A DNA stretch of 64,000 bases. Origin: Isoetes taiwanensis (taxonomy: Eukaryota; Streptophyta; Lycopodiopsida; Isoetales; Isoetaceae). This document shows positions 10,280 to 64,000 of this stretch, piece by piece. Positions within the stretch are counted from its first letter, which is position 1. Every line of letters begins with the position of its first letter. The stretch lies in the NCBI GenBank assembly GCA_021234155.1, contig JAJEKV010000147.1, forward strand, positions 1,241,910 through 1,305,909, written 5' to 3'. Both the position numbers and the translations under genes were made by a program. The notes under the pieces were generated by a model. It was given only the letters and a program-made list of their open reading frames with translations. It did no database searches and had not been told where the DNA came from.

Positions 10280-13200
10280 TAGGCAGATCAACCTACGGTA
10301 TTTGTCTGCCAATTCCGGCCCTGTCTTCTGTTGTGCCATCCTCTCGATTACGGCATGCATCAGGACAGTTAGGTGGTTGCTAATAAAGTTGATTCAGTTA
10401 TGAAATCATAAACCTTTTCAATGTTGTTGTGTTAGCTTGTTGGTATATGCTTCTGCTTGTTGTCATGGAGACCAGGGTTCAAATCTCGATTTGCACATGT
10501 ATGTTTCAGATTTTTTGTATTTCATTTGTAGACGGAGTATATTGTATTTGAAAATATGGTTCGAGATGCACCAAGGTTCAAATCCCGATTTGCACAGGTA
10601 TGTTTCAAATGTAATATACTTGAAAACATGGTTCGAGATTTGTTACTGTGTGGTTCGAATTTTTGTATTTTGATATTGAAGAAGGTTTTCATTTCTCTTC
10701 GAATTTGCCTTAGTGAACATTGATCTCATGTGAGGATGCCTCATTGGATTGTCCCTTAAATCTAGTTTCTTATGTTCTTGCCTCATTATGATGAGTCTAG
10801 TTGCTTCTTATATACATGTTTGTGTTTTCTCATCATTGTGTAAGTTGGAAACTCATGGTTACCATTCATTTCTTCGTCCTGGTTTGCATGGACCATTATA
10901 GGTTACACAAGATTGAGACCTTAGACTTGTATGCCCCTTTTTTAAACATTTTTGTCATCTCTTAACGACAAAATTGAATTTTCATAGGCTTTATATGATT
11001 GTCATCATGATTTTGGCTCGTCAATTTTCAAGTCTTTGAACCATTGTCGTTGTAATGGGTTATACTAAACATTTTTTGCGTGAAGCGTCATGGTTTTTGG
11101 ATTATCATTATCTCAAATTGTTTCATTATTCCATTATCATAGTTTATATAGGTGACATCATGTGGTGGGGCTTGCCTCATGTGGTTTTGCATGAATCATG
11201 ATATCGGTTGTGGTTTCTCATGGTCTCGATGTAATTTTACTAGTTTGCAAGTGGTTTACACATATTCACCAGTTGTTTGCCACGTTGGGCCTTTTCTATA
11301 TGAAGGTTTCATGACTATGTCATCTTTCTACCCTTTCTTTCACTTTATTTCCTTATTTGTTTGCTTGGGGTTCTCGCATTTTAGAACCCATTCGTCTTTG
11401 TTGACCTGTGTAGCATGATTGGGTATGGTATTTTAACATATGGTGGTAATGTCTTCGTCCCATAGTAGTTTGAGTTGTCCGTCAGTTTTTTATGTCCGAT
11501 GATGTATTTTGTGGATACAAGTGCTATGTGCTTGATGCTAATGGTTGAATTGATTTGCATGTTATGACTTGATTATTGTGTCCTAAGGGTTTCAGTCTAA
11601 GGGATAGTTCGTGTTTTGGTATTGCATTGCATATGTCTCTTCTCCTCTTGCATGGTTGTCATGGTTGCATTAGTTGTTTGGTGTTATTTGTGGTCTAGAG
11701 TCACAAGTTGGTTGGCTAGTCGTACATGTTTGTTGGATGTTCCTGATATGGCATAAGTTCCCTTGCTAAGTTTTCATTATTTCCATCCGCCCCATTTTTG
11801 CACCATCGATAGAAGTTTCTTTGTTCCCACTACTTTGATTCCGTTTTTCTTCAAGTCATCTTTGGCCCTGTGCTTTATTATCCTGTCAGGTTCCATAGGT
11901 CGCAATTAAAACATTAATAACCAAATGTCTTGGTGCATATTGTTAGACATTAATAACAAAAGGTCCCGTGCATAGGTCGTTTGTGCCTAGGTTGAGTTGG
12001 TCCGCCTAATCGACACCTCATCTTTCCCTTATTGTTTTGATGCCCATTGTGCCCTTTTATTTTTTGTTATAAACGTTAGCCATTATTAACACAAAGGTCT
12101 TGGTGCAGTGCATAGGTCGTTGTGCTTGGGTCCATTGTGCCCCCCCCTCCTTCCCCAAAAAGAGCATTTTCAGGTTTGCGTTGTCTTTTCTTTGGTTGCC
12201 TTGGATGTGCTTGAACTTGGAGTCTAGAGTCAGTCTTTGTTTTGCTTCGTTGCTTTCTTGGTTGTCTGGTTCTTGCATGGGTCGTGTTAGGTTCGCTGCA
12301 TGGTATTTTTGGTTGGTTTCTGATTTTTTGCTCGTTTGGTCGGTGTGCTGCTTGGATATATGATGCATTGTCGTCTAGGAGTTTTTTCCTGCGTTGGGTT
12401 TTGTCCTTTATGTCGATCTTTAGGTAGTTTTCAGGTTGTTGTTTTTCTTTTAATGGTATGCGCTTTCTTTGTTCTTTCTTTCAGCTTTTTGGGTTGGTCG
12501 ATTTATGGTGTCCATCCTCATTGGCTCTATTTTTCTGTATCTAGATTAACCATCTTACGTGTCAAATCCTTTTTTGGCTTTCTTACTTGCGTGTATTTGT
12601 AAATGTATAAATGATGGGTTATTGCTCATTTTTGCAGAGTCGTCTGGTTCTTTTCTTGGGTCGGTTTGCATTTAGCTTTGTATAATTGTCGTGGTTGTAT
12701 GTTTCCTTGGGTGGCATCCTAGTGATAGTTTCTCTCTTTGGTGGTCTATTTTATGTCCTTTTGCTCTCTCTTTCGGATTTGCAGGTTTGAAACCCCGTCT
12801 TGTTTTGTAAGTTACGTAGTGGGTAAAAGTAAGGTTGTTAGATGTTGATTTTATCAGGTTCTCTTGGGCCGGTTGGTGTTTAGATTAGTATATTTTGTCG
12901 AGTTGATGGTTTTTCCTTTGGTGGCCCGACCATGTATGGTTCCCTCCTTTTTTGCAAATGTTGGTTTTAGTTGCGGGGTTCTTGGGTGGAAAAGATTCGA
13001 GCTATGGGTTCGGTTGGGGATGGCATCTCGGTAGATCTTGATAAGAATCATTTTTTGACTTGGCGACTAGAGGGGGGTCAATGTCCGCTTCTTGGTATTT
13101 TTCCTCGTCTTGTCATTATGAAGGGGTGGTGCCATCTCTAGTCGACATTGATGGGGATCGTTGTAACCTCTTTGTCCACGTAGTTCAACAAGGGACTAAC

Positions 13201-18854: not shown

Positions 18855-20271
18855 ACATTCGGCCAATAACATATCATAAGGCGTCTGCATTTTCGTACCT
18901 AGTTCTGTATGAAAAAATTTCTTCTAAACCTTTTCAACCTTTTTCCACATCTCCAATGAAAGCCCGGGCCCCCAAACCTCACATCCATAGCGCACAACGG
19001 ATTGCACAAGAGAGCTATATAACATTTTCTTGATACTAAAATCCCATATTTCAGCATTTCTACACCTCTGCAATGCAAACAATGCTTTTAAGCCACCGCT
19101 GACTCGTTGCTCTACTGCCTGATTCCAGTGGAAGCCTTTATCAACAATCAGCCCAAGATATTTATATACACTTGCAATTTCTATAGTTTCACCTTTATAA
19201 TACCATGCAAGGTGATCCACTTTATTGGCCCCAAAAATAATGATTCTCATTTTATTCATATTCACTACCATACCTTTTGCATCGCAAAATTTCGCCAAGG
19301 CATCTAAGTGCTTCTGCATTCCCCCCACATCTCTAGACAATATCACAATATCATCTGCATACAATAGGAGTAATATAACAAATCCACTTAGGGACGCACC
19401 TTCTCCTCCATTTCTGGCTATCCATTCCTCTAACTCGTCTATAAATAGACCAAATAAAGTCGGAGATAATGGGCAGCCTTGCTTTACCCCAATATTGCTA
19501 TCCACTAAGCTCTGGCATTTTTCAAAAAAGGGAAACGATAATTGAACCCATACCTTATCATATAGCATCTTGACTGCAAGCTCATATTCCATAGGGACTC
19601 CAAGCTTGTCCATGCGCTGCCAGAGATTACTCTTTGCACCTTATCAAAGGCCTTTGTGAAATCAACAAATAATGCATTACCAATGACAGAGTCCATCAAT
19701 GCTCTAAAGGTGACCAGATGATCTGTAGTGGATTTTTTGCGACGGAAACCAGCTTGGCCCTTAGCTTTAACCTTAGATTCCTCCGCCCAGCCACTAATTT
19801 TAGCATCAAGCATGGTAGCAAAAAGCTTCGAATATAAGCTACTAATCATTATCATTCTATAATTATTTGGGTCTGATTCATCACCTGCTTTATGCAACGG
19901 TTTGACTCTATTTATCTACCATGATTGCGGGAATCCCTCATGTAATGATGCATTAAACATCGAGACAAGCACATTAGCAACAGAAGGGCCTGCCCATTTA
20001 AACATTTCTACTGTTAGCCCCAAGGCGTCTGCCGCTTTTCCATTAGAAAGCTTTTCAAGTCCTTTAAGGACATCCTCAACAGTAAATACAAGGATGTTAA
20101 ACCCAACTGCATGCCCAGCGGCCTCATCCAGCCCATGCACATGATAAAGCTCTTGCACCTGCTTCCATAAATCAGCCACATCAAGCATCGCATTCATTGG
20201 TTTCTTAGGCTTGAGCCTTAGCCAAAACTTCTTGGGATCTGAAATCAAATTCGTAACCATATCTTCACACC
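18855..20271 (-). pseudogene. LINE-A reverse transcriptase
   Basis: The upstream linker with 'FWLRLKPKKP' is at 19916-20271. Reverse transcriptase follows in two frames. In 19505-19897: 'NYRMIMISSLYSKLFATML' and motif A 'FVDFTKAFDKV'. In 18924-19613: motif B 'GVKQGCPLSPTLF', motif C 'YADDIVILS' and the thumb start 'YKYLGLIVD'. The catalytic aspartates (FVDF and YADD) are intact, but frameshifts near 19900 and 19610 break the gene. LINE-B is inserted immediately upstream at 20272. Confidence 0.88.
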
Positions 20272-20435: not shown

Positions 20436-22694
20436 TCACCATCTACAACACCCAAAAAGTCCAGCCAAATGGAAAACCTCTGCTCTACTAATCCCGGGAA
20501 CACCAGAAAGCTTTGAAATAGCTTGTACCTGAGTCGAAGAATCAGAGAGGCTAGGCTGCTGAATCCCCTGAAAGATCCACAACCGCCGCCGCTTCCAAAT
20601 CAGCCACACCAACCAAGCCACGCACAGATGCAAGGCTTGCTGCCGCAAGAGCGGCCAAGCACCAGGATACACATGAAGCGACAAGAATCGGCTAGTCAAT
20701 CTCACCAAACAGGCCCTAACCCAATCCCGGGCACCGCAAGTGAGGGCATAAAACTAGACAATGCTCCACAGTCTCACGATGAAGGCCACAACAGGGGCAG
20801 AGAGGGCTCACACCCGGCCTAAACTGACTCACAAGGGCATTCACCCTGATACAGTAGTGCACCACCTGCCACAGAAGCACTCTAAACTTCGGTGGGGGAA
20901 GTGAGCTCCATGTCCACGTCCAACCAGAGCGCCATCGAGAACCCGAAAGCTGCAGAGACCACTTTCCTGAAGGGGGCAGTGTGTCATGAATAGCCAGCAC
21001 CCGGTAACAAGACCGCACAAAACAAGAAGACACAATCCAAACCTGCACCACCACATCATCCTGAGGAACTATAGGTATGTATAGCGGAATACTCCCCCAA
21101 GACTTGTTCCCGGATAGCCCTCCACACGCCCCTTAGGGCTAAAAGCGAGCTCGAAAGAACTCCCACGAAGCTAGCTGACCACCCCAATACCAATCCTCCA
21201 AGGTGAGCACAACAGCTCGCCTCCAATGGGCCTGCGTCCGAGCATGCACGGTGGCAGCCAAGGGCAAGTGCGCAGGGGGTAGAGGAACCCACAAGAAAGG
21301 AGAAGAGTGGTGATAAACTGAGGCATAATCTAGCTGGAAGAGCACACGCACATGATCCCAAGCCCGCAACACCCCCGTGAGAAAAGGGGATGCATGTGGG
21401 AAAGGCCGGAGACCATACAACAGTGCCCAGGGCAACTCCACATGCACAGACGGCTTCCCAAACGCCACACAATGGCGAAGAGATCGCAACAACAGCCACC
21501 CCGCACCGGAGAAGATGCTCCATCCTGCAGAATGCTCCAAACAAACTTGGAGACCAACACCTTACTATGCAGTGCCAAATCCAGAATGGCCAAGCCCCCA
21601 TCCTCCCGGGCGGAGACACTTCCACCAAGCCACTTTAACAACCGCCCCTTCATCATCCCCGCCCCACACAAAATTTCGAACAATCTTATCCAAAGCCTGT
21701 ATCTTACCCTCAGGAGCTAACATCGCAGATGCTGTATACACATGAGTGCTACAAAGTACTGACTTGGCAATAGTGATCCTACCTGCCATGGACAACTTGT
21801 TACCCTTCCACCAATTGAGGTGTTTCTGCAACCCCTGCAAAATCTCATCCCACACCCTCCCCATGGAAACATCCCCTCCAAAGGGAATACCCAACAGCTT
21901 AGTACACACATTACCTGGAAGCACCTTCCAAGGGAATAGAGCCAAACAAGGGGAGGCGAGTCAATCAGGGCCCATAATGCGGAGCATTTACCCCAATTCA
22001 GAAGAATGCCCGAGGCCAAGGAGAAAGTATCCAGCAAACCCTTCACATTCCGCAAATTCCTCTCTTCTGCCACCAAGAAGAGGAAAGTGTCATCGGCAAA
22101 CTGGTTAATAATCTGGCTGGCACCATCCCCGCATCCAAGCCCATCCACCACCCCCTCCTCCACTGCAGCCCAAACACAAACGAGGCAAAGGCCTCCGCCA
22201 CAATCGTAAACAAAAACGGCGCCAAAGGGCACCCCTGATGCACCCCTCTGCCTAAGGAGAAAAAGGCGGAGGATTCACCCTGGCACACCACTGTAGCCCG
22301 TGCTGACCTATGCAGCTTCATGACTGTCTCTGTAAAGCGTGGACCACAGCCCAACGCTAACATCATGGCAGACAAGAACTCCCAACGGACACTATTGTAA
22401 GCTTTGGCAAAGTCAAGCTTAAGATAGGCAATGCCTTGACCTGTTCTCCTGGCCCAATAAAGGCCCTCATAAGCTGCGGCAACATTAGTCAAAATGTTCC
22501 TCCCAGGGACAAACCCAGACTGCACCTTACTAATGGAAGAAGTCAACACCGGCTTCAACTTCTCTGCCAAGGCTTTCGCAATAATCTTATACACGGAGGA
22601 CAACAAGGAGATAGGCCTCCAATCATTAATAATAGAAGGCTGCTTAACCTTAGGAATCAAGGAAATGCATGCGGTATTCAAGATCCTATCTATT
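20436..22694 (-). pseudogene. LINE-B reverse transcriptase and zf-RVT domain
   Basis: Frames 22043-22708, 21717-22232, 21565-21945 and 20436-21059 together encode the L1-type reverse transcriptase. I see 'DWRPISLLSSVYKI' and 'SGFVPGRNI', motif A 'LDFAKAYNSV', motif B 'GVHQGCPLAPFLF', motif C 'QFADDTFLFLV', and the post-catalytic 'LLGIPFGG...NWWKGNKLSMAGR'. The zf-RVT zinc-binding segment, 'FRVLLWQVVHYCIRVNAL' then 'CPCCG...EHCLVLC', follows. At least three frameshifts are present. The first residues that belong to the 11-kb insert rather than to the LINE lie upstream of 'DRILNTACISLIPK'. Confidence 0.9.
22691..22694. repeat. left target-site duplication TATT
   Basis: TATT at 22691-22694 matches TATT at 33738-33741. 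If the element is taken one base shorter at each end, TTA (22693-22695 and 33737-33739) is an equally valid 3-bp duplication, of the TWA type used by PIF/Harbinger. Both readings restore the LINE-B frame. Confidence 0.65.
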
Positions 22695-22713
22695 AAGCAT
22701 GATTTCATTAATT
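22695..22713 (+). repeat. left terminal inverted repeat (19 bp)
   Basis: AAGCATGATTTCATTAATT is an exact inverse of 33719-33737. The next bases (AGAG versus GGAT) diverge, though a looser AT-rich resemblance continues. Confidence 0.85.
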
Positions 22714-25209
22714 AGAGAAATTTGGAATTCTCGTTTAGCATGAAATAGGTTAGTGGGTAGCCATATAGTGCAGAAACTACTACCAACTGAGTAAAAGTTG
22801 GCGTTTTTTTGCACAAATTCTGCAAATGATTCATTGTTCTTCGGAAATATAATTTTTACAGCTCATGCAAAGGTCCATCGCGAGTAGAATGTAGTAGGAG
22901 GGAATGCTCAAACTTATCGCAAGAATTGCGAACGCGATGTTTCGCAGCTGAAAGGAGACAAAATAATGAGCCTTTTATTAAAATCATATGAGAGCATTGC
23001 ATTAAAAGAAGGTACCGAGGAGCAAGCATACCACAAAAATTTCAGTATTTAAAGCCATATATTTACTACAGAGGATCGCGGTCGCGATTATTTTTAGCAT
23101 TAAACATATGGTAAAAGATATGGTTAAAGACAAAAAGATTTGGTAATACATATTCCTGAAACCAAAATTTCCATTGAAGGAAGTAATATACAACATTCAT
23201 TATTCTGATTGTGTTTCAGATACTTGATCAGGTATCACACCCATTTCATTGGCCATGCGGAAGACATGCTCTCTACCCAATTCCATAGCTTGTGTTGTGT
23301 CCATCTCTGAATAACCTGTGACCTCTGGAATCTGAACACCCATGGCGTTTGCGATGCGCTGCAGATGTGAATCAGGCTCCCATTTTTCACTCATCCCACT
23401 ATTGCCTTTGCTCCCCCCGCCTATAAGTTCCTTCTCCCGATTCAAGAGCAATCTGCTGTGGATGAAAGAGCTTCGCTTCTTCTTGTGTACACGATGCTCT
23501 TGTGTCCCAAATGACCTCATCTTGGTCTGTTTCCATGTCTTTGTTAGTGCGCTTCCATGTCTTTGGTGGTCTGTTTCCATGTGTTCTCATGCCGTATTCA
23601 AACTTCGTTACTTTGTCAAGAAAGGCATGTACCCATCAAGCTTCTCATTAAGTGCACTCAATTTTTGAAAAGTGGGCTCGGGGCTTCTATACCTTTTTCC
23701 GTCTCTTCAATTCTTGCATTCTCTCTTCAGTAGGACTTAGCATCGAGGTTTTCCAAAATGGAATCCAACTTTGATAGATCGTGTTTTGGGTGATCTTGAT
23801 GTTGGGCGTATTTGGATCGGGCTCAACATTCTCTGCTTTCTCCTCTTCTTCAAACCCCCGTGCTTTGATTGGCCATTTTCTCAAAGCGTTTCCAAGAACA
23901 CCCTCGAAAAGCGGCACACTTTACCTTTTGAAGGCCACGCTCTTTTTGCCTTGCATAAGAGCAACACGAGAAGTCTGTCGGCCGAAAAGAAATCGAACGC
24001 AAACCATCGGTCGGCACCACCGCTCAACAACAATATGGTAGGCATCACGAGGTTTTCAGGTGGCATTTCAATACAAGATCTCCTTCCATTGCCGCCCATT
24101 TGAATCTTGGTTTTCCTGTGAAAAGAGTCTGAAATTTCTTTTTTATCTTCTCATCGGCATCCTCATTACCTGTTAGCGGCATTGGAGGCAATGGTGTTGA
24201 CTTAGGAGCCTTGTCGTGTGGAGATAGGCGAAGCTCCAGCTCTGGTTGCACAGGTGCTACACGAACATCACTCCTGTTAATGCACATATGACTAATATAG
24301 TACTGATGTTCTTTCACCCTTCGTTTGCTCTCCCATCCCATTTCTTCATAAGAACCTAAAGATAGGTGGCCACCGCCTCGAATTTGCTTCCATTTGTACA
24401 AGCAATTGGGCAAATTCACGCAGGCGCATGATAATAACCAAGTGATAAACTTTGGCATTCGTCATGGTAGCTATCCTTGTAAATAGATCTGTGTATTTCT
24501 TGCAATCCCATACCTTGTTCATCCCTCGGATGTCAATAAATATCAATGTCGCATTCTCTGACACTTGGGAGGAAGTAGGGATGCCATCCTTTGTCACTGC
24601 TATGACAATATTTTTCTTTTCCTTTCTTTTTCTAGCCTCTTCTGGCTTTAGAATATTCCTGATTGGCTCCAGAAAGGCTACAGGTAGGTTACCTAGTGTA
24701 TGGTCCTTGTTATAGTTAGCCTTCACGCATACTCAGACGGCGATTATCGATATATCCGGTATTCTCTGCTTGATCAAATCGGGGAAAAAGCCTGGAAGCA
24801 ATTCCTCCCAGCTATCGAAATCCTTTTGCAGCAAATTTGTGGCATAAGATAAAATTTCGCGCCTCATAAAAGTGAGGGTTCTGATGTCAGTTGCCCGTTG
24901 TTTGCAATCAAATCTCCCGCTATACCCTGACTGCACCTTTAAATAGGTCTTGCCTTCTATAATCTCATCGAGCAGCTGTGACACCTCTGCATTCGACATA
25001 CCTCGTAGCAACCGGAGCCAGGTCTTGTTAAAGAAGTCTTTGGATGGCTTGTCCGGAAACTCACCATGGTCGTCACTGAGTTTACGACTCACCCACAGAC
25101 CGGCAACTTCCATTAACTTTTTGAAAACCTTCTCATCCATAAAGATGAATTGTTTTTCATCCTTAAGCTCCTGCACTTTCAAAGTGGTCGTTGCAATTTC
25201 ATGAAAATC

Positions 25210-25273
25210 CTGCAGAAGCAAAGGTCATTAAGATCGCGGTCGCGATGTTGGCGAGCAGAAAGTGAATAAATAC
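25210..25273 (-). other. 64-bp intron containing a CG palindrome
   Basis: Donor AAG|GTATTT and acceptor CTGCAG|GATTTT bound a 64-bp intron in the ParB-like gene. The palindrome GATCGCGGTCGCGAT fills 25232-25246. Confidence 0.6.
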
Positions 25274-27074
25274 CTTCCAAGCAGAAGTCGTAGCCGTTCC
25301 TATCGGTCCTTGTGGAGGACAGCCATAAGCCTTGTGCTGATGACGAAGTTGTTGCAGTTTTTCAATCAGTGGCTCTCTGTAGACGGTGTTTGCAATTACT
25401 TCGTTGCATTGAATACTCAACTCTATATATTCCTTGTCAGTGAGATTTCCATTTAGCACTCTCGATCTTCTTCTAGCATATACTTTAGCAAATTCTAGTT
25501 GCTGCTCCCGGTTGCCGACGACCGAACAAAGGAGTTGTGCCGCGCAAATACTGTGGTTGCCAGAAATAATGTAAAATTTCTTGCCCTTCAAATCTTCTGG
25601 ATTGCTCCATGTCACCCTCCTCCTGAAAGATAGACAACCATCAAGTCAAATCTACATAACGAGTGTCCAAAAGATTAAGAATTAGTTACCTGGTAATAGG
25701 GTCAAACGGCACTACGTCAGCAGGTGTGAGGACCTCTGTCGGGTATGTCTTGAAGCTTTTAACCAGAGTTTGAACATGGTCATTTGATCGCATTATGTGT
25801 GTCAAGTTTGCTGGTGCAGGTTCACAATCAAAAATAGAAATCTTTGTAAACCAATTAACCCCTAAGGGGTAAAACCTTTTGAACTGTTCAAGCTTCTGAG
25901 TGGTTTGCTCTGCCATCTTGCGTTCCTCTTCCGGATTGAACTTCAACTCGACTGGAATGGCAGGTGCGTGGGGCCATGTCAATGCTAGTCTAGAGGAGGC
26001 ATCCGTGGCGAGGGGGTTTGAGAATCGGCGGGCTGCGGGCTATCGTCAGCAGGTGTCAGATTTCTAAGGTTAATTTTGAAAGGAGGGAGTTTTTTTGCAA
26101 TAAATCCACCAGATGTAGTGCTATCTGGGGCCTTCAAAGCAAGAGGAAGAGTAGGGTTAATAATACCGGAGGGGTTTATCGTGCATTGTGGTTCTTCAAC
26201 AACCTTTTTTGGTGCTGACGTCTCTCCCAAAGTAGCAATAGGCTTCACACTCTTTTTCTTGGCCACAGCTCTTAGCCAATTGGTGTCCATCACAGAGGGC
26301 TTTCAAAGCACAGCTCGGAGGCTTCTTGTCTGTAGACAAACCATTTCTGCATGCCAAGAACCCTACCAATATGTCTCTGTTTCCCTTTATTCCTGACAAA
26401 GAGAGAGATTCATAGGATGGCAACAACCAGCCATAACCCTTAGCTGATGTGGGGACGTTTTTCCCTCAATGGGTACGGCTTGTTCATTTTGGTTGGGCAT
26501 CAAAGACGGATCATAATTGCGCCATTTCAAAATGTACTCCAGGAACTGCAATGCTTGTGTGTCCTCAATGCTGCATATGATAGCATCTTGCACATTGTTC
26601 TTCGTGCCTTCCCACATTGCCACCACTATGCCAACTTGTTCAACGTCCTCAGGTTTCTTTCGGTCATCAAGCAGAACAGCCGCGGTCCTTTTTCGCGATC
26701 ACCTTTAATGTCGCGGTATGGCTTGTGCAATCTCAATACACCATTTCCTTTCATTGGAAGGGGTTATAATACGGATGGGTTCGACATCCGGTCCTCAAAA
26801 CAGCAGCAAGTCTTTGTAAACAAAAGTCTGCGGGTGAGTGCGATAGGGCGCATAATGTTGTGCAACGAAAAGTATAAACTCATCAGAGAAACGCGACGCG
26901 ATCCTTCCAAGCAACTAAAATAGCACTCCACACTATCGCGCCGCGTGTTGTGTAGCGACTAAGCACGGCAAGAATACAATACCACTCGCTCACGAACATC
27001 GCGGTTAGCGATCCTAGTGACCTACTACACTACTAGTCATGAACATCGCAAGAAAGAAAACCTATGCTCAGCAA

Positions 27075-27222
27075 GACCGCGGCCGCGATCTTGTTGAGCA
27101 GCCACAGCTATCAAAACATTACAAAACCTAGCAAGCAAGACCGCGGCCGCGATCTTGCTGAGCAGCTATAGTTATGAAAACATTACAAGTTCTAGTAGGC
27201 AAGATCGCGGCCGCGATCTTGC
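27075..27222. repeat. 64-bp tandem repeat with CG-rich palindromes (three copies)
   Basis: Palindromic cores lie at 27075-27090, 27139-27154 and 27203-27218, exactly 64 bp apart. Between them is the repeated 'ttgctgagcagc...aaaacattacaa' spacer. The third is a perfect 24-bp palindrome (27199-27222) centred on GCGGCCGC. The first two carry GACC in place of GATC. The array lies in the presumed first intron of the ParB-like gene. Confidence 0.85.
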
Positions 27223-27412
27223 TGAGCTGAAATGTTAGAAATTACCTTCTCTGAGGGAGTCCTTAGGTGCCATGGGATCGCGGGCGCCGGCTGTGTACGA
27301 AATTCCAGTCGTTTTGGGGAGGCTCGAGAAGGCGCTCCGAACTCGAAGGCGCTAGGCGCTGAAGAAATCGCGGTCGGCGAAGAGTTGAATTTTGTTTTGA
27401 GATGTTCTGAGT

Positions 27413-27436
27413 TTGAATTTATAGAACGCGGCCGCG
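27413..27436 (-). promoter_or_regulatory. candidate promoter: TATA box next to CG palindrome
   Basis: On the minus strand, TTCTATAAATTC (about 27413-27424) sits directly downstream of CCGCGGCCGCG (27425-27436). It is about 140 bp upstream of the putative ATG at 27273 of the ParB-like gene. Promoter function is inferred from position and motif. Confidence 0.45.
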
Positions 27437-28676
27437 GAATTTAATTGCCCGCCCATCATAATGGTGCGTGAAAACTCGTGCCAGCCATGATGGCGCCAGA
27501 CGTCTTGGCGCGTTAATTACACACGGAAGTATTAATTACCTGCCGCCCGGCCGTATTTATTACCGGCCATAAATGCGTTCGTGCGAATATACCCGTCCGA
27601 AAAAGCAAGGAATCCGTACAGAAGGTCTTCATCGACTTGGACGTCCGCGTTCAATTTCCTCCCGTAATGTCAATTCATTAAAGGTACCTGACACATTATG
27701 CAGCCATAAATGCTCCAAATAAAAACTGGATTACGGACGGACAGTGACAGTCAAATTTGAATTCGATAACAAACATTTCAAGTGAAAGCGGGAAAAGCCA
27801 ATCCAAATTTGATTGTTTTGCAAGATCTTCGAGACGCTGGAGCTGCGCCTAAGCTGGGCCAAGTTCGGGCAAGGATTTGCTGCAGAATCCCGCTTCCATT
27901 GAAGGCGCTGACGAGGGCGCTGATAATCCGCTTGCACTCCGCCACTACACATTTGGATTTCTTCCACTGCATCGAGTTCAGGGTTTCGGGCGAGGTAAAA
28001 GGCCTATTCTGATGCATATCACTCAGTGAAGTGAACTCAAAGTTTATGTTGCACTGAAATTCAATTATAACTACAACCTCCGAGTCTCTACACTAACATC
28101 ACTATGTATTGCATGGTTTGATAAGATACCTGCTGATACTTTGGTGCAACTATGTAAAAATAGATGTTCTAAGCAAACCTGTGCACTCTGGTGTGTTTAT
28201 TATACAATGTAAACGTGTTTCAAGTATATGCTTTCTTTCTCCATGTGGATGATACAAAACACTGTTTTGATGACACTGCAGCTTCTGACGGGACAAGTAG
28301 ACGTTGACGCCACCATATTCTGTGAGGTATGAGTAATGCTTTAGTCTGTAAGTTAATCGTTTAACTATTGTGCTCGACGAGATCGCGGTCGCGTTACCTT
28401 CAACCATCAAGAACTCGCAGCTATCGATAACTATGAGTTGAAACCACTTGCTAACCTCGACATGTGATTTGCACATGAGTTCTTATCGAAACAGCTAGTG
28501 TGAATGCTTGCAAAAAGCGCGACCGCGTTCTTGCCCATGCTCGATAAGATCGCGGTGGCGAAAGTCCTGAACATTTTTTAATTTCTCAGTTGCTATTTTT
28601 TGTAGTACTTTATGATCACAGTTCTTTTTGCTTACGAGGATCGCGGCCGCGATATTCACGACCTCTTGTTTGCAGG
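27437..28676. promoter_or_regulatory. intergenic/leader region between divergent transposon genes
   Basis: The leftward ParB-like gene and the rightward DUF8039 ORF diverge from here, so promoters for both are expected. Variants of the CG palindrome occur at 28381-28394, 28517-28530, 28548-28561 and 28639-28653. The last lies about 20 bp upstream of a good splice acceptor (TTGTTTGCAG, ending at 28675), so at least part of this stretch is probably intron. Confidence 0.4.
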
Positions 28677-29243
28677 ATGGCAGATGTAATTCCGCTATAT
28701 CTGTTGGGGAAAAAGGTGGCAGAGGGAAGAGTCCACAATTTCGAGCGCCATCACAATTCGATTGTCCCGGAGGGTATGGTTGTTGTTTCAATTGTGAATG
28801 TTTTGTATGGACATTTGCCGCTACCAATTCCCGAGCTGGAAATAGAAAAAATTGGTGAAGCTGTGGGGACTTTTGTGTTGTGGTACAAGAAGGACATTGC
28901 TGCTCAACTTGTTAGAGAGGAGGAAGCTTGCACCCCACCAGGTCAGATAAAACGCATAAACTGGCAGGACAGAGGCAATGAGGGGTTAGCCAGTAATGAG
29001 ACGAATCATGTGCAAGGGCTTTCTAGAGATGAGTTAGTTGAGAAGGCATGCACACTCATGCATGAATGCTGCCACATGGCTTATGGCCATGGTGTTATCG
29101 TTTTTGCCGATCCAAACCATGCTGTGTCTGACGTGAAGTTAGGGGAAGGCTCGATAGCTGCTACTATCATGAGCATATTTCCAATGCCTGAAAAGATCTC
29201 TATCTGTTTGCCAAGCACGTGCGAAAATGCCCCAACCGCATGA
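28677..29243 (+). CDS. DUF8039-like transposon protein (partial)
   Basis: The ATG lies one base after a splice acceptor. The first about 75 residues read 'LLGKKVAEGRVHN...LPIPELEIEKIGEAVGTFVLW'. That matches the pattern I know from DUF8039 domains in plant CACTA-type transposon proteins: KVAEGR, a short loop, PIPxxEI, xxGxAxGxFVxWxK. The rest, including 'MHECCHMAYGHGVIVF', is unfamiliar. A second frame, 29227-29436, overlaps the end and may be its continuation after a frameshift. The DUF7869 gene follows on the same strand, so the two may be exons of one transcript. DUF8039 has no known biochemical function. Confidence 0.45.
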   Translation: MADVIPLYLLGKKVAEGRVHNFERHHNSIVPEGMVVVSIVNVLYGHLPLPIPELEIEKIGEAVGTFVLWYKKDIAAQLVREEEACTPPGQIKRINWQDRGNEGLASNETNHVQGLSRDELVEKACTLMHECCHMAYGHGVIVFADPNHAVSDVKLGEGSIAATIMSIFPMPEKISICLPSTCENAPTA

Positions 29244-29449
29244 CCTTGTGAGATGGCCCATAGCCTTCGTGCTCGTTGATAACATTCCGGTTTCTACTCT
29301 GTGGTTCGCGGTGAAGGAGAAGGATGTGGAGAATGAACCTTACTCCATTAGACCGAAATTGGCATCACCAAAAAGAGACCTTACAAAGATGGTCAATCGG
29401 AGACCCGGGACACGTCCCCCTGACGACCAAATGTGAAAGAAAAACTAGT

Positions 29450-31812
29450 GCTGAGGCTATTCTAGACTTCAGGTCATCACTGTCTTCTGCATGAAACGAT
29501 GTTGTGCAAATTTTACATCCCAGGAGATAGCTTGCATGAGAACCTTTTACTGGAACATGAAGTCCTCGGAGCGCACAACCTTTGCATATAACATGCTAGA
29601 TCTTTGCTCAGAAAATGGTGTAGTCCGCAAACCCGATGTTGAATAACAAAAAAAAAAGGCGTGAAAGCATGGCATAAAGCCTATGGCATACCCATTTCCA
29701 CTTTTTACAAGTGGAAGAAGCTCTTCAATGACGGCCACAGAATTGCTGAGCACGGAAATACTGGGTCTAAGAAGCCAAGGTCTCATACTTTGGTCGGGTA
29801 TCTTTATTATATCTATGTTCATAGATGAAAACGCGAGACGATGCCACACCGCCGAAAATTACGAGCGAGGGTAGCGAACAAAATGTTAAGAGGCTACCTT
29901 CAGTCTTGACTAAGAAGGATATACACCAAGAAGTAGATATTACCGCTACGAGATGACAGGGCAAGCATATTTCTCCTTCGGTCCTTTACCCGCTTGGAAA
30001 GAGAATCATTCGTGAGGTAGCAATAGCTAAGAGGATAGCATTTTCTAAGTGTAACACCAGTATTGTCATAAAGGAAAAGCTTGCTAAGACCAGAGATCCA
30101 AATGAAAGAAGGGTACTTGCAATAGAGAGAAAATCGCATATGATGGGCCAGATTTCATGCGGGGAGCCTTTATCGGGTCCCTGGAGAGCTTTGTGTCATG
30201 AGATCTCCTCGAGCACGCTTTAACCATTATACATGATAAGATGGATCAGAATAAGACCATGGTCCCTCGTCTAGAGAAGCTAGCAAAGTCTCAGATGGAG
30301 GGGTGAACGAATCAAGGTCGATTGTTACGAGGTGCTCTCATGCACGGCCATGGTATAGGTGCCTTGGGCCACTTCTCCACTTTGGACCTCGGCCCGATGA
30401 TTCTAATTTTCATGTGGGATCCTTGAATCATACCTTGAAGACACTGGAGAATAAATCTGAAGATAATTGGGGCCATTTGAGAGATACAGATCGTCCTGAA
30501 AGCAGCTGGGGTGCAGCAATTTTAAACACAGATAACTTTAGGACAAAAATGATGAATGGCAGTAGAAATGATTTTATGTCCCCTATCAAAGGCCCCATGG
30601 TAGCGAACAAGTTGCCTAGGAGGCTTTACTTGCAGCTAGATAATTGCTCAGGTCAGAATAAGAATAGATATATTTTCTCTTACTTGTCATACTTGGTTTG
30701 GTTAGGTGTCTTTGATCAAGTGCAGCTGGGATTCATGATGGTTGGACACACCCACGATGACATAGATGCCCTATTTGGAAACTACTCTACTCTAATGAGA
30801 AGATCAGATGCATTGACTATTCCGGAGCTTATGCAACTCTTCAGGCAGTGTAGTTCAAAGGCTCCTTCACCTTACCTTGTGACAGAGGTTCCTAATTGGA
30901 AGGAATTCGTGAAAGGTTTTATCCTTGATAAGAAGGACCGTTTATGTGGTCACTTGGAACCTCTACTCTTCAAGTTTTGCATGAAGGATGGATGGCCACT
31001 AATGTTCTACAAGATGAGGCCAGGGCATAGGGAGTGGCTCCCTGAAAAGGGAATCAGAATGTGGAAGGAGGATGCCCAAGGTTTACCTATGATTCCGAGA
31101 GGGTCACCTAAGGTCGTGCAGCCATATGGGAGCTTGAAAGATATAGGTGCATTAAGAGCTTCTATTGCCAAGTACATGATGCACTGGGCAGCTATTTCTA
31201 GAGCTGGCGATAAGTCATGGTCCAACACATATATGAATGAAGTTATTGACTCTTCGTCCCACCTTGCCGCAAGTGCTTGGGGACGTCGCAGCCCGGTAGA
31301 GTTGTCATTCAGATTTCGCCCAAAGACCGGGCAAAGTGCATTGGAAGAACCCGAAAGAGTGTTTGTGGATGAGCACATTGAAGCATCTCATTACGTTGGG
31401 CCTTTCTCGGGTAGACCCAAGAACCCAGTTGAAATATTCGACCCCTACCAAGATGTCAAGAAAGGAATGCTCTTGCTAATCAGACCACATGATAACGCCT
31501 CGACGTGGATGGCTTTTGCGAAGAGGACCCAATAGAGGACCCTAATCTCCCACATTACGAAGAGGTGTTTGTCTCTGGTTTGAGCTTTGGCGAAAAGGGA
31601 ACCTCATATACAATGCAAGATAGGGATTGCTCGGAGCAAGAATTGGAGACCCAATCCTAATGACCCCAAGACGCTACCAACATTTGAAAACAATAGACTA
31701 TGGTTGGGGCCGTGAGACCAGGCCATTGTCGATGGTGATCCCCAGTAGTGTGGGGGCTCAGTTGCAAGAATTAGTGGCTAAAGAAGCTAAGGACGATGAT
31801 GAGAACTCTTGA
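29450..31812 (+). pseudogene. DUF7869 transposase-like gene
   Basis: The N-terminal part is in broken frames: 'SQEIACMRTFYWNM' near 29530, 'YGIPISTFYKWKKLF' near 29690, and 'FSKCNTSIVIKEKLAKTRDP' with 'HDKMDQNKTMVPRLEKLAKS' between 30030 and 30300. The main frame 30303-31535 (410 codons) carries 'LQLDNCSGQNKNRYIFSYLS' and then 'GHTHDDIDALFG', hallmarks of the DUF7869 family found in many eukaryotic transposon-like genes. The C-terminus is in 31627-31812, 'PRRYQHLKTIDYGW'. The conserved Asp residues and HxxDD suggest a DDE/RNase H-fold nuclease, which is inference. Stops and frameshifts upstream of 30303 make this copy defective. Confidence 0.75.
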
Positions 31813-31937
31813 GGTATGCAATGCTCTTTTACATAATTACTATATCATTCATAACATGCAAGTTACAATAGACTAGTTATTATTCATTACGCTCTGCGTT
31901 TTCATCTCAACACAAGAGCTCTTACACTATACAATGC

Positions 31938-32188
31938 TAAACAGTTGATTCATTCATCTTCGGGATCTCAGAGTAGTGATCCCCGATATCTCATAGCTCA
32001 TTCGCCCGAAGCCAAATCGGATGGATCATTACAACTAATTGACGCAGGCAACGAATCTCGGCCAAAAGCTTTTCTTCGCGGTAGGGATCAAGAAGAAGAT
32101 ACACGCCTAGGCAACCAACAAGATCGAGTGGCTCATTGAGCACTTGATCGCCTCGATGTGGTGAACCCGATGAAGGCGAAAAATCCAT
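31938..32188 (-). pseudogene. small transposon gene, copy 1 (frameshifted)
   Basis: The ATG at 32188 lies in the same CTCCCATGG context as the other copies. The frame reads 'MDFSPSSGSPHRGDQ...LLLDPYREEKLL' and stops early at 31991. In another frame the conserved C-terminal 'YEISGIT' persists to about 31945. So the copy has lost frame relative to the intact 33218-33460 gene. The shared parts are the initiator region, an LDP motif and the C-terminus. No known family was recognised. Confidence 0.5.
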
Positions 32189-32220
32189 GGGAGAAGAATG
32201 AACTTTAGCCCCGTGAGAAG

Positions 32221-32230
32221 CTTTTATAGT
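32221..32230 (-). promoter_or_regulatory. TATA box of small gene copy 1
   Basis: Minus-strand ACTATAAAAG lies about 35-40 bp upstream of the ATG at 32188, at the same spacing as in the other two copies. Confidence 0.6.
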
Positions 32231-32603
32231 GAAGTAGAATTATTGAGGTGAATTATTGGGGTAGACTTCAAATACCATTATTGCTCGTGTATAAGACCGT
32301 TGTATAAATACAAGTATAATACATCTTTCGTATGGATATATGTATGCTTTTAAAACGTGTGCTTGAGTAATTCAGTGTGGTTGAAATTAGGAACCGCTTT
32401 CTGAGAATCCATTCACGAGAATTGCTTGCTAAAGAGGCATCCGAGGATGGAGATGAAACTTGAGTCTTACAGTACATTAAAGCATTTCACAATAGACTAT
32501 TTATTATCCATAACATCACTACAATAGACTATTTATTATTCATTACGTCTTGCATTTTTCATCTTAACACAAGAGCTCTTACACTATAACATGTTGAACA
32601 ATT

Positions 32604-32845
32604 GATTCATTCATCTTCGGGATCCAGAGTAGTGATCCCCGATATCTCATAGCTCATGCGCGTGAAGCCAAATCAGATCGATCATCACACCTAATTGACG
32701 CACAAATAATCTCAGCGCCCAAAGCTTTTCTTCGCAGGTAGGGATCAAGAAGAAGATGCCTGTCTAGGCAACCAACAAGATCAGAGTGGCTCATTGAGCA
32801 CTTGATCGCCTCGATGTGGTGAACTGATGAAGGCGAAAAATCCAT
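32604..32845 (-). pseudogene. small transposon gene, copy 2 (frameshifted)
   Basis: From the ATG at 32845 the frame reads 'MDFSPSSVHHIEAIKCSMSH' and 'LLLDPYLRRKA', aligning with 'SEHIRSFKCYLSY' and 'NLDPWLQSKA' of copy 3. It shifts frame before the C-terminus. The C-terminal 'YEISGITTLDPEDE' followed by a stop is still readable near 32610-32655 in another frame and parallels 'YELNSITSFDVDDE' in copy 3. Confidence 0.55.
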
Positions 32846-32880
32846 GGGAGATGAATGAACTTTAGCCCCGAAGTGAGAAG

Positions 32881-32890
32881 TTTTTATAGT
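32881..32890 (-). promoter_or_regulatory. TATA box of small gene copy 2
   Basis: Minus-strand ACTATAAAAA lies about 36-45 bp upstream of the ATG at 32845. Confidence 0.6.
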
Positions 32891-33217
32891 GAGGTAGAAT
32901 TATTGGGGTGGACTTTACCCCAATTATTGCTTGCGATGTATAAGATCATTTGTATACATACAAGTATAATACATCTTTTAGTATGGATATGTTTTGTGGA
33001 TTCATGATGGCGTAAGTTTTTGTGCTTTAGTAATTCAAGTGTGATTGAAAAGCTTGCGGATATAGTGGAAGTCGAAGAGCACAACCCTACACTACACTTT
33101 CAGGTATGATATATCAAACAATATTCATTGTGCTATTACATCCTTACATAGTTTATAGGTGCTCATACCATTATTATATCATAAACAGATACAGTAGTCA
33201 TCACTGATAACATTGAT

Positions 33218-33460
33218 TCACTCATCATCAACATCAAAGCTCGTGATGCTATTCAGCTCATAGATCTCCTGATCAGGAAGCCAGTAAATGTGGACTTTAA
33301 CACGAGTGAGCTTCCCCGCAGCACTAGCGTGACCATCAGCCTTAGATTGGAGCCATGGATCAAGATTAACACCATTTCTTGCGCATTCATTCAGATCGTT
33401 GTAGCTCAAGTAGCACTTGAAAGATCGGATGTGCTCGGACGGGGGCATCGAGGAAGCCAT
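33218..33460 (-). CDS. small transposon gene, copy 3 (intact, 80 residues)
   Basis: The ATG at 33460 is chosen over the longer open frame because all three copies share CATCTCCCATGG and a TATA box just upstream. The product starts 'MASSMPPSEHIRSFKCYLSY', has a central 'NLDPWLQSKADGHASAAGKL', a hydrophobic/basic stretch 'RVKVHIYWLP', and an acidic end 'SFDVDDE'. There is no signal peptide or membrane segment. I recognise no family. The conservation of both ends in two decayed paralogues argues that the frame is real. It is the gene closest to the element's right end. Confidence 0.5.
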   Translation of the reverse strand: MASSMPPSEHIRSFKCYLSYNDLNECARNGVNLDPWLQSKADGHASAAGKLTRVKVHIYWLPDQEIYELNSITSFDVDDE

Positions 33461-33495
33461 GGGAGATGAATGATCTCTACCCCCGAGTCGAGCTG

Positions 33496-33505
33496 TTTTT
33501 ATAGT
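33496..33505 (-). promoter_or_regulatory. TATA box of small gene copy 3
   Basis: Minus-strand CACTATAAAAAC lies 36-43 bp upstream of the ATG at 33460. With transcription starting about 30 bp downstream of TATA, the leader would be only about 10-15 nt (inference). Confidence 0.6.
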
Positions 33506-33718
33506 GAAGTGAAAATTATTGATGTGAATTATTGGTGTAGAATGTAGGGCCATTATTGGGCTTCTACAAGTATCATGTACACGTACAAGTATAACACATA
33601 ATTTGTACGTATATGTGTTAATTGCCTCATGTTTGTTGGGCTCGAGAACTAGGTGAAAGTATTCGTGCTTGAGCAAATAAGGTGTGCTGAAAATTCTCAA
33701 AATTGCGTTATTTTATCC

Positions 33719-33737
33719 AATTAATGAAATCATGCTT
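33719..33737 (-). repeat. right terminal inverted repeat (19 bp)
   Basis: Exact inverse of 22695-22713. It is followed by the TATT duplication (33738-33741) and then LINE-B coding sequence. Confidence 0.85.
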
Positions 33738-35474
33738 TATTTGAGAAGACTGCAGCAACTCAAGATACACCTGGTACACAGACTCACCAGCCCACTCCCA
33801 ATAAGTCTGAAAGAACTCCACAAGGATGCCATCCAGCCCAGGACATTTATCCTTGGCCATGCACATATATGCCTCCGCTAAATCCTCTTTGGAGAGCTCC
33901 TGCTCCAAACTCTCACGCTGATGAGGCAGAATAGATGGCTTAACAGCCCCTAAAAAGCTCCTGCATCCCCTGCTCATAGGGAAGAGTGCACTATGCAAAA
34001 AACCCTGAGAAACGAGCATGCACATACCTCTGCAAATCAGCGGGATCCTCTAAAGTCCGGCCATCAGGCAAAGCAAGGGACGTCATAGATCTTTGCATAT
34101 ATCGCCACGCTTAGCCGCTCTCGAAGAACACCGACGAACTTGTGTCCCCTTCCTTCAACCAGGTAAGGGCTGCCTTCACACGCAGCCCTCCTGCACTTTA
34201 ACCTCTGCTCCAGCAGCAATAATACGCCGCAACACCGCATTCTCCCCTAATGCCATCGGGGCTGCGCTTCGAATCTTCTCCAACTCCCCGATAGCGACCA
34301 TGCAACTCCTGCTTTTGCCGCCTTTGCGACACGCTGCCTACCAAAGACCTTGGCAAAATGCTTCACCCTGGCTAACGCAGTCACCATACCAGACATACCC
34401 TTCCGAGATGAAAAGGTATCAAGCCACAACTCCCGGCATTTGGCCGAAATCTGATCGGCCGGTCGGGTGTTCAAACGGAACACCGCCCTAGAGGGCCGAG
34501 AGGCAATCGCACCACCGACAAAAAACCCGAGGGTAATGATCGAAAATGGAGGTAGACGAATGTTATTCCGGTGCAAAGAGGCACACCATCCAGTGCGCAT
34601 GGGGAAGCATAGCACCGGTCATGCCTAGCATACGCCCGGCCCGCACCAATATGCCTATTACAATAGGTGAAAGACAAGTCCTCAGGGACCTCAACCAAGG
34701 CCAAATCTTGCAACAAACGAGACCACTGGTCCCTCTCAAACCCATGCACAACCTAGATTTCAGAACCAGAGCGATCCTCTACTCGCTCTACCATATTAAA
34801 GTCCCCTAACAGCAACCAAGCGACCTGCAACCCACCAAGGGCTCGCAACTTATTTCGGACTGTGGCCCATAAAGCACCACGCTGAGAAGGCTGATTAGGG
34901 GCATAAACATTAACAATCCCCCACTCTTACCCTCCCTCCAACCACTTAATTATTGCCCACCGACCAAACCTGTTGGCTGCAGAGTACGTGACCTGCACAT
35001 CCATCCTCCAAGCAATAAGAGTACCCCCACTAGTCCGCCCAGAAGAAGAAGCAATAGAGGCAAACTGCCTACCAATCATATTCATGAGCCTGGACATATC
35101 ACCCCTGTGACACTTATGCTCCTGAATGCAAACAATATCAGGACGCAACTGCCGAAGTGCCAAAGAAACACGGGCCCTCTTACTACTAGAGGACCGCACC
35201 CCCCGCACATTCCAACTAAGGATCAACCTATTCATCTCGGAGGAGAAGTGTCTAGCCCCACATGCCTACCCACTAGGCCATCAGCCCACTCCACAGAGTC
35301 ATCATCTAGCGCCAGAGGATTAATCACAGCAATGTGACCCACAGCCGCTCTACGTGACATTCCACTTCCAACACGTGTTGGAAGTCCCCCAGGCACCTCC
35401 ATAGAGTCATGGGCCACACTAGTCTCTAACTCCAACTGGGCTGCTCCAGTCTCTACCTCCAACCGGGCTGCTCC
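33738..35474 (-). pseudogene. LINE-B endonuclease and linker (5' part)
   Basis: ORF2 begins with 'MNRLILSWNVRGVRS' (35235), the typical start of an exonuclease-endonuclease-phosphatase domain. It continues 'DIVCIQEHKC', 'VNVYAPNQP' and 'LLGDFNMVERVEDRSG' in shifting frames. The linker to reverse transcriptase includes 'MAKDKCPGLDGILVEFFQTY' (33708-34025), as in plant L1 elements, and runs up to the insertion at 33738. The stretch 35232-35462 may be the end of ORF1. The LINE is 5' truncated at about 35474, where it meets LINE-A. Confidence 0.82.
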
Positions 35475-56831: not shown

Positions 56832-57643
56832 AATGGCAACGAACCCTCAAGGATAATAACATTGGCAATGCAAAGGTTTGATTAAGGCCAATGTATACCG
56901 ACGACTGAGGTACACTGCCCTAGCACCGTCATGTGAGTTTTAAGCTTGTCGTCGCTTGTCCCTTAGAAGTACAATTTACACTAGGAAGGACTCAAAACAT
57001 TCCTCCTCTTCAATGGCAGAAGGTGTGGTCTTGGGCATGGGACAAGCTACTTCATCCTAAAGTGGCAGTTCTTTGGTGGCAGATTCTTCATAGGTGTCTG
57101 CGGGTTAACGTGCTTGTCCATAAGTTCAACCCTAGAATATCAAATCAGTGTCCAGTATGCAAGCGTGGATCTGAGACCATTGAGCATTGCTTTTTCATGT
57201 GTGAACACCTTAGACAGGTATGGGACTGGTTGTTTTCCCTTTTTCAGGTTTCACTAACAAGTCAACAACTGCTTTTGGCAATTTACCCAAGTACCTGGAC
57301 AGAGTTACAGGGCCAGGCTTTTCATCTAGCAGCAGGATGGTTGCTTTGGACTATCTGGAAAAGACGAAGATTGGTAATCTTCAAAGGTCTGGATGTGGCA
57401 GATAATCGTGTTCTCCAAGAAGCTCAAGGTTACATTGTAAAGTCGTATCATTGTTCTTCACTTGCCCCTCGCAAGAGGCGATTGATTTTTGAGGAGTATT
57501 TGGATGTGCACTCTTATGCTTAGGCAGGTTGCTTCACTCGGTGGGTCTCTGCTTATCCGCTGAGATTTTATTCCTGTCTCTGCATTTATACTTGTATTTG
57601 ACTCTTTGATTGAATAAAGTCTGACGTCCTTCAACAAAAAAAA
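56832..57643 (+). mobile_element. 5'-truncated LINE (zf-RVT end), plus strand
   Basis: The frame 56933-57523 encodes the C-terminus of an L1-type ORF2: 'HPKVAVLWWQILHRCLRVNV', then CPVC...EHCFFMC (zf-RVT), and 'FHLAAGWLLWTIWKRRRLVI'. It closely resembles the LINE-B C-terminus at 20436-21059. A 3' UTR with 'GATTGAATAAAGTCTGACG' and a short A run follows. TTACACCT flanks both sides (56824-56831 and 57644-57651), a candidate target duplication. No reverse transcriptase core is present, as expected of 5' truncation. Confidence 0.75.
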
Positions 57644-61518: not shown

Positions 61519-63411
<1,893 letters not shown>

Positions 63412-64000
63412 TGTGATCTCGACTTGCTGAAAGCTGAAACAAACAAGATACACATTATCAAAACATGTTGGAGATTGCAAATCAGCAAGCAGATCTCTAA
63501 CTACAACACAGCTGACGACAAAACTCAAAATGCAAATGCAAAAGCGCATTTATAAGGTGAAGAATGCAGATGCAAGGGCGCATGAACAAAATATTGCCGA
63601 AAAGAAAAGTTAACAAGAATACGAAGCAAGGAACGATCCGGTACGTAATAAGAGCAGGCATTTTTGCGACATTTTACCAGATAAAGTCCGGCGAGTACAA
63701 TACCTAAGAAGAACTAAATTATCTGGATCTAATCTAGACAAGGAAAACCAGAACACAGAGATTCGTGCAAAGGAAGAACTCGAACCTCGAAAATAAACCA
63801 GAAGTCGGTGCCTCCGGTATAGAGCCGACGAGATGGGAGGGAAGAAGAAGGGCTCTTCCTTTTCTACTAAGCCCCGGAACACACGGGTCCTTGACGTACC
63901 TGATGGGCCCTTTCTCAGATCTGAGATCTGGCCATCCACGTACCGACGGCAGATCTCGTTCAGCATTCCAGCCCAAAATCTCAGTCGTCCAATACACGTG
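63412..64000 (-). promoter_or_regulatory. SAHH 5' UTR, probable leader intron and promoter
   Basis: A pyrimidine-rich acceptor TTTGTTTCAG ends at 63434, so 63412-63433 is the last part of the leader and an upstream non-coding exon is likely. A donor such as CGAG|GTTCGAG near 63785 is a candidate. CTATA near 63818-63823 might be the core promoter. None of these can be confirmed without transcripts. Confidence 0.45.

Follow-up and report, generated by a model that had tools for sequence, protein, structure and literature searches.

What kind of mobile element carries a ParB-like gene opposite a DUF7869 gene in a plant genome? The question is raised by a stretch of 64,000 nucleotides from Isoetes taiwanensis (contig JAJEKV010000147.1, positions 1,241,910 to 1,305,909; assembly GCA_021234155.1), hereafter ‘the window’, in which a preliminary description, made from the letters alone, delimited an 11-kb DNA transposon of unrecognised type. 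Here, we report that this insert is a decayed member of a large family. We consider it likely that the family is of the Sola type and moves by cut and paste, with a DUF7869 transposase and a ParB-methyltransferase-like protein that targets its own elements via the palindrome GATCGCGRYCGCGATC.

Boundaries of the insert and extent of its family

The insert of 11,043 bp lies between two identical, inverted 19-bp ends, each present once in the window, and is flanked by TATT on both sides (Table 1). The left flank encodes a reverse transcriptase (RT; RVT_1, E 4.6e-24). When the flanks are joined with one TATT removed, a single open RT frame of about 160 codons runs across the junction (…LLQSSQ-I-DRILNTA…), and this frame is broken if both TATT copies are kept. 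The ends, the length, and the rejoining of the RT frame on excision were all part of the preliminary description and are reproduced here. The window copy is decayed, with frame changes that divide both of its major genes into several frames each, although some of these changes may be exon boundaries.

The genome searched comprises 1.66 Gb in 1,110 contigs. At up to two mismatches, the 19-bp end has 1,132 forward and 1,156 reverse matches in it (2,288 together), as against 7 and 1 (8 together) for a reversed-sequence control. From 100 listed places we took seven further complete copies (10.2–14.0 kb), defined by exact ends in inverted pairs. Over the aligned columns, their identity with the window copy is 80–94%, apart from E912a (75%), the middle of which has been replaced. 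Alignment places the DUF7869 and ParB-like genes between the ends in six of the seven, the exception being E912a, from which the middle part, transposase core included, has gone. Many other copies share the ends, and the earlier view of the insert as a complete-ended, gene-carrying transposon holds.

Perfect 4-bp duplications flank seven of the eight copies, the window copy included (TATT, ATTT, TTTA, TACA, AAAA, ATAA, and TTAA), with none in E917. Fourteen additional ends were tried: seven had a partner at up to two mismatches, six of these with a perfect 4-bp duplication (TGTT, TAAC, TAGA, TATA, AGTA, and TTTC) and one, C208, with none; the other seven had no partner end at that threshold. 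A copy of a distant subfamily (L052+L055; 9,180 bp), the left end of which has two mismatches, is flanked by AAGC. Altogether, 14 of the 16 two-ended copies have a perfect duplication, each with a different sequence, and 48 of the 56 duplicated bases are A or T. The target duplication is therefore 4 bp long, variable in sequence, and mostly AT-rich. Additionally, seven of eight stretches around diverged ParB-like genes have ends with one to four mismatches; the eighth, L048, has no end at up to four.

Among the complete copies, E320 (L009, L010), at 14.0 kb, has partly repeated right-end material together with perfect ends and a 4-bp duplication. E912a (L015, L016) is full-length, with about 4.7 kb of foreign sequence in place of its middle; an open reading frame (ORF) in this replacement contains YVLGGNHSFKARRQLYKE, which by eye resembles a second, different ParB-like motif, and the replacement ORFs gave no useful match in Pfam. 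An ORF beside an element (L049:7981-9054, minus strand) is gag-like by eye, contains a CCHC zinc knuckle, and is probably a retrotransposon neighbour.

The divergent gene pair

The rightward gene matches DUF7869 in Pfam (E 4.6e-38), which confirms the earlier DUF7869 label. Its RNase-H-like core carries IHDKMD, LQLDN, and GHTHDDID, and modelling predicts an RNase-H/DDE-like fold for the protein, the ATG of which is probably at 28678. Searches further afield gave little: Foldseek with the transposase model returned no significant match, none of the viral contigs encodes a transposase relative, and a protein search with the 370-aa ORF found no relative. The A4 query had no usable stretch, and with it the PDB gave only short, doubtful matches. 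The DUF8039 label of the preliminary description lacks support, as there was no Pfam match up to E 1 for the window piece or up to E 5 for two long relatives, in a library in which the presence of that model is unconfirmed.

In the leftward gene, FYIISGNHSICAAQLL is ParB-like, and an exon upstream of it reads VQTLVKSFKTYPTEVLTPADVVPFDP. The ParB label is by motif only, namely G-x-H in FFIISGNHSIFAAQ. The region has no match in Pfam, NCBIfam, PHROGs, the PDB, or phage proteins, and its structure model was too poor to search with. A protein homology search with the ParB-like exon found a single relative, P0058 (60%), for which a search of phage proteins gave two unrelated matches at E 2.

In copies with longer frames, the ParB-like stretch is followed by VLDFFSGGTASRVALMQGKRSVAFEFDD. 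Searched against phages, this region of the distant copy L053 matched 52 records, 48 of them from Gordonia phages, with a best E of 1e-5 and others reaching E 1 and beyond; the 40 matches listed are all annotated as DNA methyltransferase, as are all seven plasmid matches to the region (E 0.6–0.8). Pfam PF01555 matches it below the cut-off (E 0.062) and matches two of the phage relatives at 1e-21 to 1e-22. The homologous domain of one phage enzyme, gp66 of Gordonia phage Francois, is 27% identical over 123 aa. On sequence comparison, then, the second gene couples a ParB-like region to a domain resembling beta-class N6/N4 DNA methyltransferases (hereafter ParB-methylase), in which the DPPY motif of the phage enzymes is lacking.

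Does such a protein still methylate DNA? An active or altered methyltransferase that marks the element, e.g. with N6-methyladenine (6mA) or N4-methylcytosine (4mC), would be consistent with the homology to phage enzymes and with S-adenosylmethionine (SAM) motif I (DFFSxGT), which is kept in three of nine ORF pieces, namely the three that reach it; an algal relative is also predicted by its authors, in the passages cited here, to make 4mC or 6mA (PMC12477816). However, [DNSE]PP[YFWHL] is absent from all nine ORF pieces, which come from five copies, and in an alignment to two phage enzymes DPPY falls on PNCLY of the transposon protein. We therefore regard methylation of the element as unlikely; the missing DPPY points to a protein that binds without methylating.

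Both genes show a third-position excess between subfamilies. It is 0.51–0.59 in pieces of the ParB-methylase gene (p 1e-5 to 9e-24), 0.63 in the transposase core (p 4e-16), and 0.55 in the N-terminal half of the transposase in another pair, and it is significant in eight of ten between-subfamily comparisons over all genes together. It is not significant for the N-terminus of the window transposase, where the alignment is poor (24% identity). Close copies gave a null result in a test that left out E911 and the last small genes, as expected of copies that are decaying. The ParB-methylase gene is under purifying selection and, as this holds for the methyltransferase-like domain, some function has been kept.

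The two genes are linked and opposed. Eighteen ParB-like/transposase pairs lie within 15 kb of each other, against 0.27 expected, and all 18 are divergent; the count comes from incomplete lists, with 150 matches for the ParB-like gene and 98 for the transposase, the remaining 80 transposase matches having no partner among the ParB-like matches listed. These pairs pass the test by which the preliminary description proposed to refute itself. The gene set first described stands as to the ParB-like gene (by motif), its leftward orientation, DUF7869, and the small genes discussed below, but it included neither the methyltransferase domain nor the palindromes.

Placement among DNA transposons

The earlier statement that the ends are not those of CACTA, hAT, MULE, or piggyBac elements agrees with both the ends and the duplication length. 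CACTA (EnSpm) elements have ends that begin with CACTA and a 3-bp duplication; here, the ends are AAGCATG and the duplication is 4 bp, a length that also differs from the 8 bp of hAT elements and the 9 bp of MULEs. PiggyBac elements duplicate TTAA only, which occurs once among the 14 different duplications. PIF/Harbinger elements make a 3-bp TWA duplication. A TTA can be read at the window site, and the preliminary description had left room for such targeting, but 14 copies with 14 different 4-bp duplications refute it, and the reading as a PIF/Harbinger relative that duplicates TTA is now highly improbable.

The same variable 4-bp duplications fit the Sola superfamily, and a Sola-type element is our best reading. 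AT-rich 4-bp target duplications are reported for Sola2 elements (PMC3627910), and the insert combines such duplications with perfect terminal inverted repeats. The amoebozoan Sola2 elements resemble it further in their short inverted repeats, large transposase, and family-specific accessory genes; they differ in that the accessory gene is Fanzor (PMC3627910). Among plants, a Physcomitrella Sola1 is listed in a review (PMC9033089).

Sola1-1_Ec32, a giant Sola-1 element of the brown alga Ectocarpus, is likewise a large DNA transposon, in which a ParB-like/N4C/N6A DNA-methyltransferase gene lies on the strand opposite the transposase (PMC12477816). The divergent gene pairs of the Isoetes family share this accessory feature, ParB being recognised by motif. 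The element is consequently not of an unrecognised type, as first thought, but of a kind already known, at least as the cited passages describe the algal example. Sola1-1_Ec32 is 21.5 kb long, and its 1104-aa protein is predicted to methylate (4mC or 6mA) (PMC12477816); the elements described here, compared with it by description, are 9–14 kb long, lack DPPY, carry a set of palindromes and, at the right end, a small gene, and reside in a plant.

Membership of a superfamily outside Sola, with 4-bp duplications by coincidence, we judge rather unlikely. In its favour, the comparison with Sola is one of features rather than of protein sequence, and DUF7869 is named nowhere in the literature searched (from which subscription papers were mostly absent). 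Against it, AT-rich 4-bp duplications and an opposite-strand ParB-methylase gene have both been reported for Sola elements (PMC3627910, PMC12477816, in the parts cited). If the Sola placement is right, DUF7869 gains a likely identity, that of a Sola-type transposase.

Palindromes

A search of the window for GATCGCGGNCGCGATC at up to three mismatches gives 10 places (17 strand matches), all of them inside the element, with 0.26 expected. The exact 16-bp GATCGCGRYCGCGATC occurs at 720 places genome-wide, against one for a control. Forty of 50 listed places have a listed end, ParB-like match, or transposase match no more than 12 kb away, and the feature lists with which the other ten were compared are incomplete; when positions were shifted by 40–100 kb, zero to two were near listed features, some right shifts possibly leaving the contig.

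The palindromes occupy recurrent positions: about 230 and 340–390 bp from the left end, in the probable intron, and before both genes. L052 keeps these positions as well, even though BLAST finds no match between its intergenic DNA and the window copy. The number of sites seems to vary in steps of about 64 bp, and older copies have fewer sites, with one at up to three mismatches in E917.

Which protein would bind them? In CACTA or hAT elements it is the transposase that binds subterminal repeats, and the sites near the left end would suit a similar role here, in which the transposase binds the palindromes in the service of transposition. Yet no palindrome at up to three mismatches lies near the window copy's right end, only one of eight copies has a right-end palindrome (E912a, position 10335, three mismatches), and most sites lie before genes or in the probable intron. 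Binding by the transposase thus seems improbable to us, and the ParB-methylase protein is the better candidate.

Proposed mechanism and novelty

In the Sola-type reading, the DUF7869 protein, with its RNase-H (DDE/D) core, would be the transposase; it would recognise the AAGCATGATTTCATTAATT ends and insert at AT-rich sites, cutting them with a 4-bp stagger. The ParB-methylase protein, from the divergently transcribed gene, would be a self-targeting accessory factor whose binding sites are the GATCGCGRYCGCGATC palindromes found at the left end, in the probable intron, and before both genes. Such binding may control transcription or silencing of the protein's own element, as VANC does on the VANDALs of Arabidopsis, which are MULEs. 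There, too, an element-encoded accessory protein goes with a short motif that is enriched in noncoding parts—in introns and upstream of VANA—and is gained and lost in tandem repeats (PMC5735166). The motif differs, and binding has been demonstrated experimentally for VANC (PMC5735166), whereas here we infer it. More tentatively, a transposon-borne ParB-methylase protein of prokaryote type that has lost methylation could recognise its own element sequence-specifically through CpG-rich, parS-like palindromes, lift host silencing, and so be an independent counterpart of VANC made from bacterial components; this is conceivable, but we would not favour it as it stands.

Binding and modification of their own elements has been proposed for the ParB-methyltransferase accessory proteins of algal transposons (PMC12477816, in the passages cited). 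To that suggestion, the Isoetes family adds a concrete candidate binding site in its exact genomic palindromes, a plant host rich in long open frames, and a DPPY-less variant that may separate binding from methylation. Apparently new are the plant host, the missing DPPY, the 80-aa right-end gene, and the 16-bp palindrome, although no literature search was aimed at palindromes. Among the literature matches listed, within the scope given above, there was no land-plant ParB-methyltransferase transposon protein; priority is uncertain.

Right-end genes and feature coordinates

The tandem small genes noted earlier at the right end are three diverged repeats spaced about 610–660 bp apart; in each, on the minus strand, a TATA-like box precedes an ATG, and the 80-aa ORF is kept only by the last. 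Its version in L052 is 90% identical (91% in DNA), against 74% for transposase DNA, which suggests either strong constraint on this end or its exchange between subfamilies. Third-position excess for the small gene is not significant between subfamilies. The right end of L052+L055 as a whole is closer to the window copy (about 81% identical) than are the genes (about 71–74%).

Table 1. Features of the element in the window copy (positions in the window).
Feature	Position	Strand	Remark
Target-site duplication TATT, left copy	22691..22694		4-bp duplication in 14/16 two-ended copies
Left terminal inverted repeat, AAGCATGATTTCATTAATT	22695..22713	+	
Degenerate left-subterminal palindrome	22924..22939		4 mismatches
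Left-subterminal palindrome	23074..23089		1 mismatch
ParB-like + N6/N4-methyltransferase-like gene	23200..26824	-	several exons, broken in window copy
ParB-methylase pieces matched by relatives	26824-26009, 26003-25689, 25624-25205, 25215-24391, 24413-23700	-	
ParB-methylase gene, likely tail	23586-23200	-	
Palindrome	25232..25247		1 mismatch; in probable short intron of ParB-methylase gene
Palindromes upstream of ParB-methylase gene	27075..27291		at 27075, 27139, 27203 (64-bp spacing); weaker at 27276
Palindromes just 5' of probable transposase ATG	28381..28654		at 28381, 28515, 28548, 28639; 1-3 mismatches
DUF7869 transposase-like gene	28678..31812	+	broken in window copy; N-terminal region, helix-turn-helix-like stretch, RNase-H-like core
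Small gene, repeat copy 1	31991..32188	-	65-aa ORF; TATA-like box upstream
Small gene, repeat copy 2	32654..32845	-	63-aa ORF; TATA-like box upstream
Small gene, repeat copy 3	33218..33460	-	80-aa ORF; 90% identical in distant subfamily copy
Right terminal inverted repeat	33719..33737	-	
Target-site duplication TATT, right copy	33738..33741		

The window also holds remains of long interspersed nuclear elements (LINEs): RVT_1 is matched twice on the minus strand (18927-19640 and 22043-22711), and a zf-RVT domain, which is typical of plant LINEs, lies at 56924-57520 on the plus strand. S-adenosyl-L-homocysteine hydrolase is matched at E 1.4e-102 and 9.5e-84 by a pair of long minus-strand ORFs at 61522-63549, probably a host gene.

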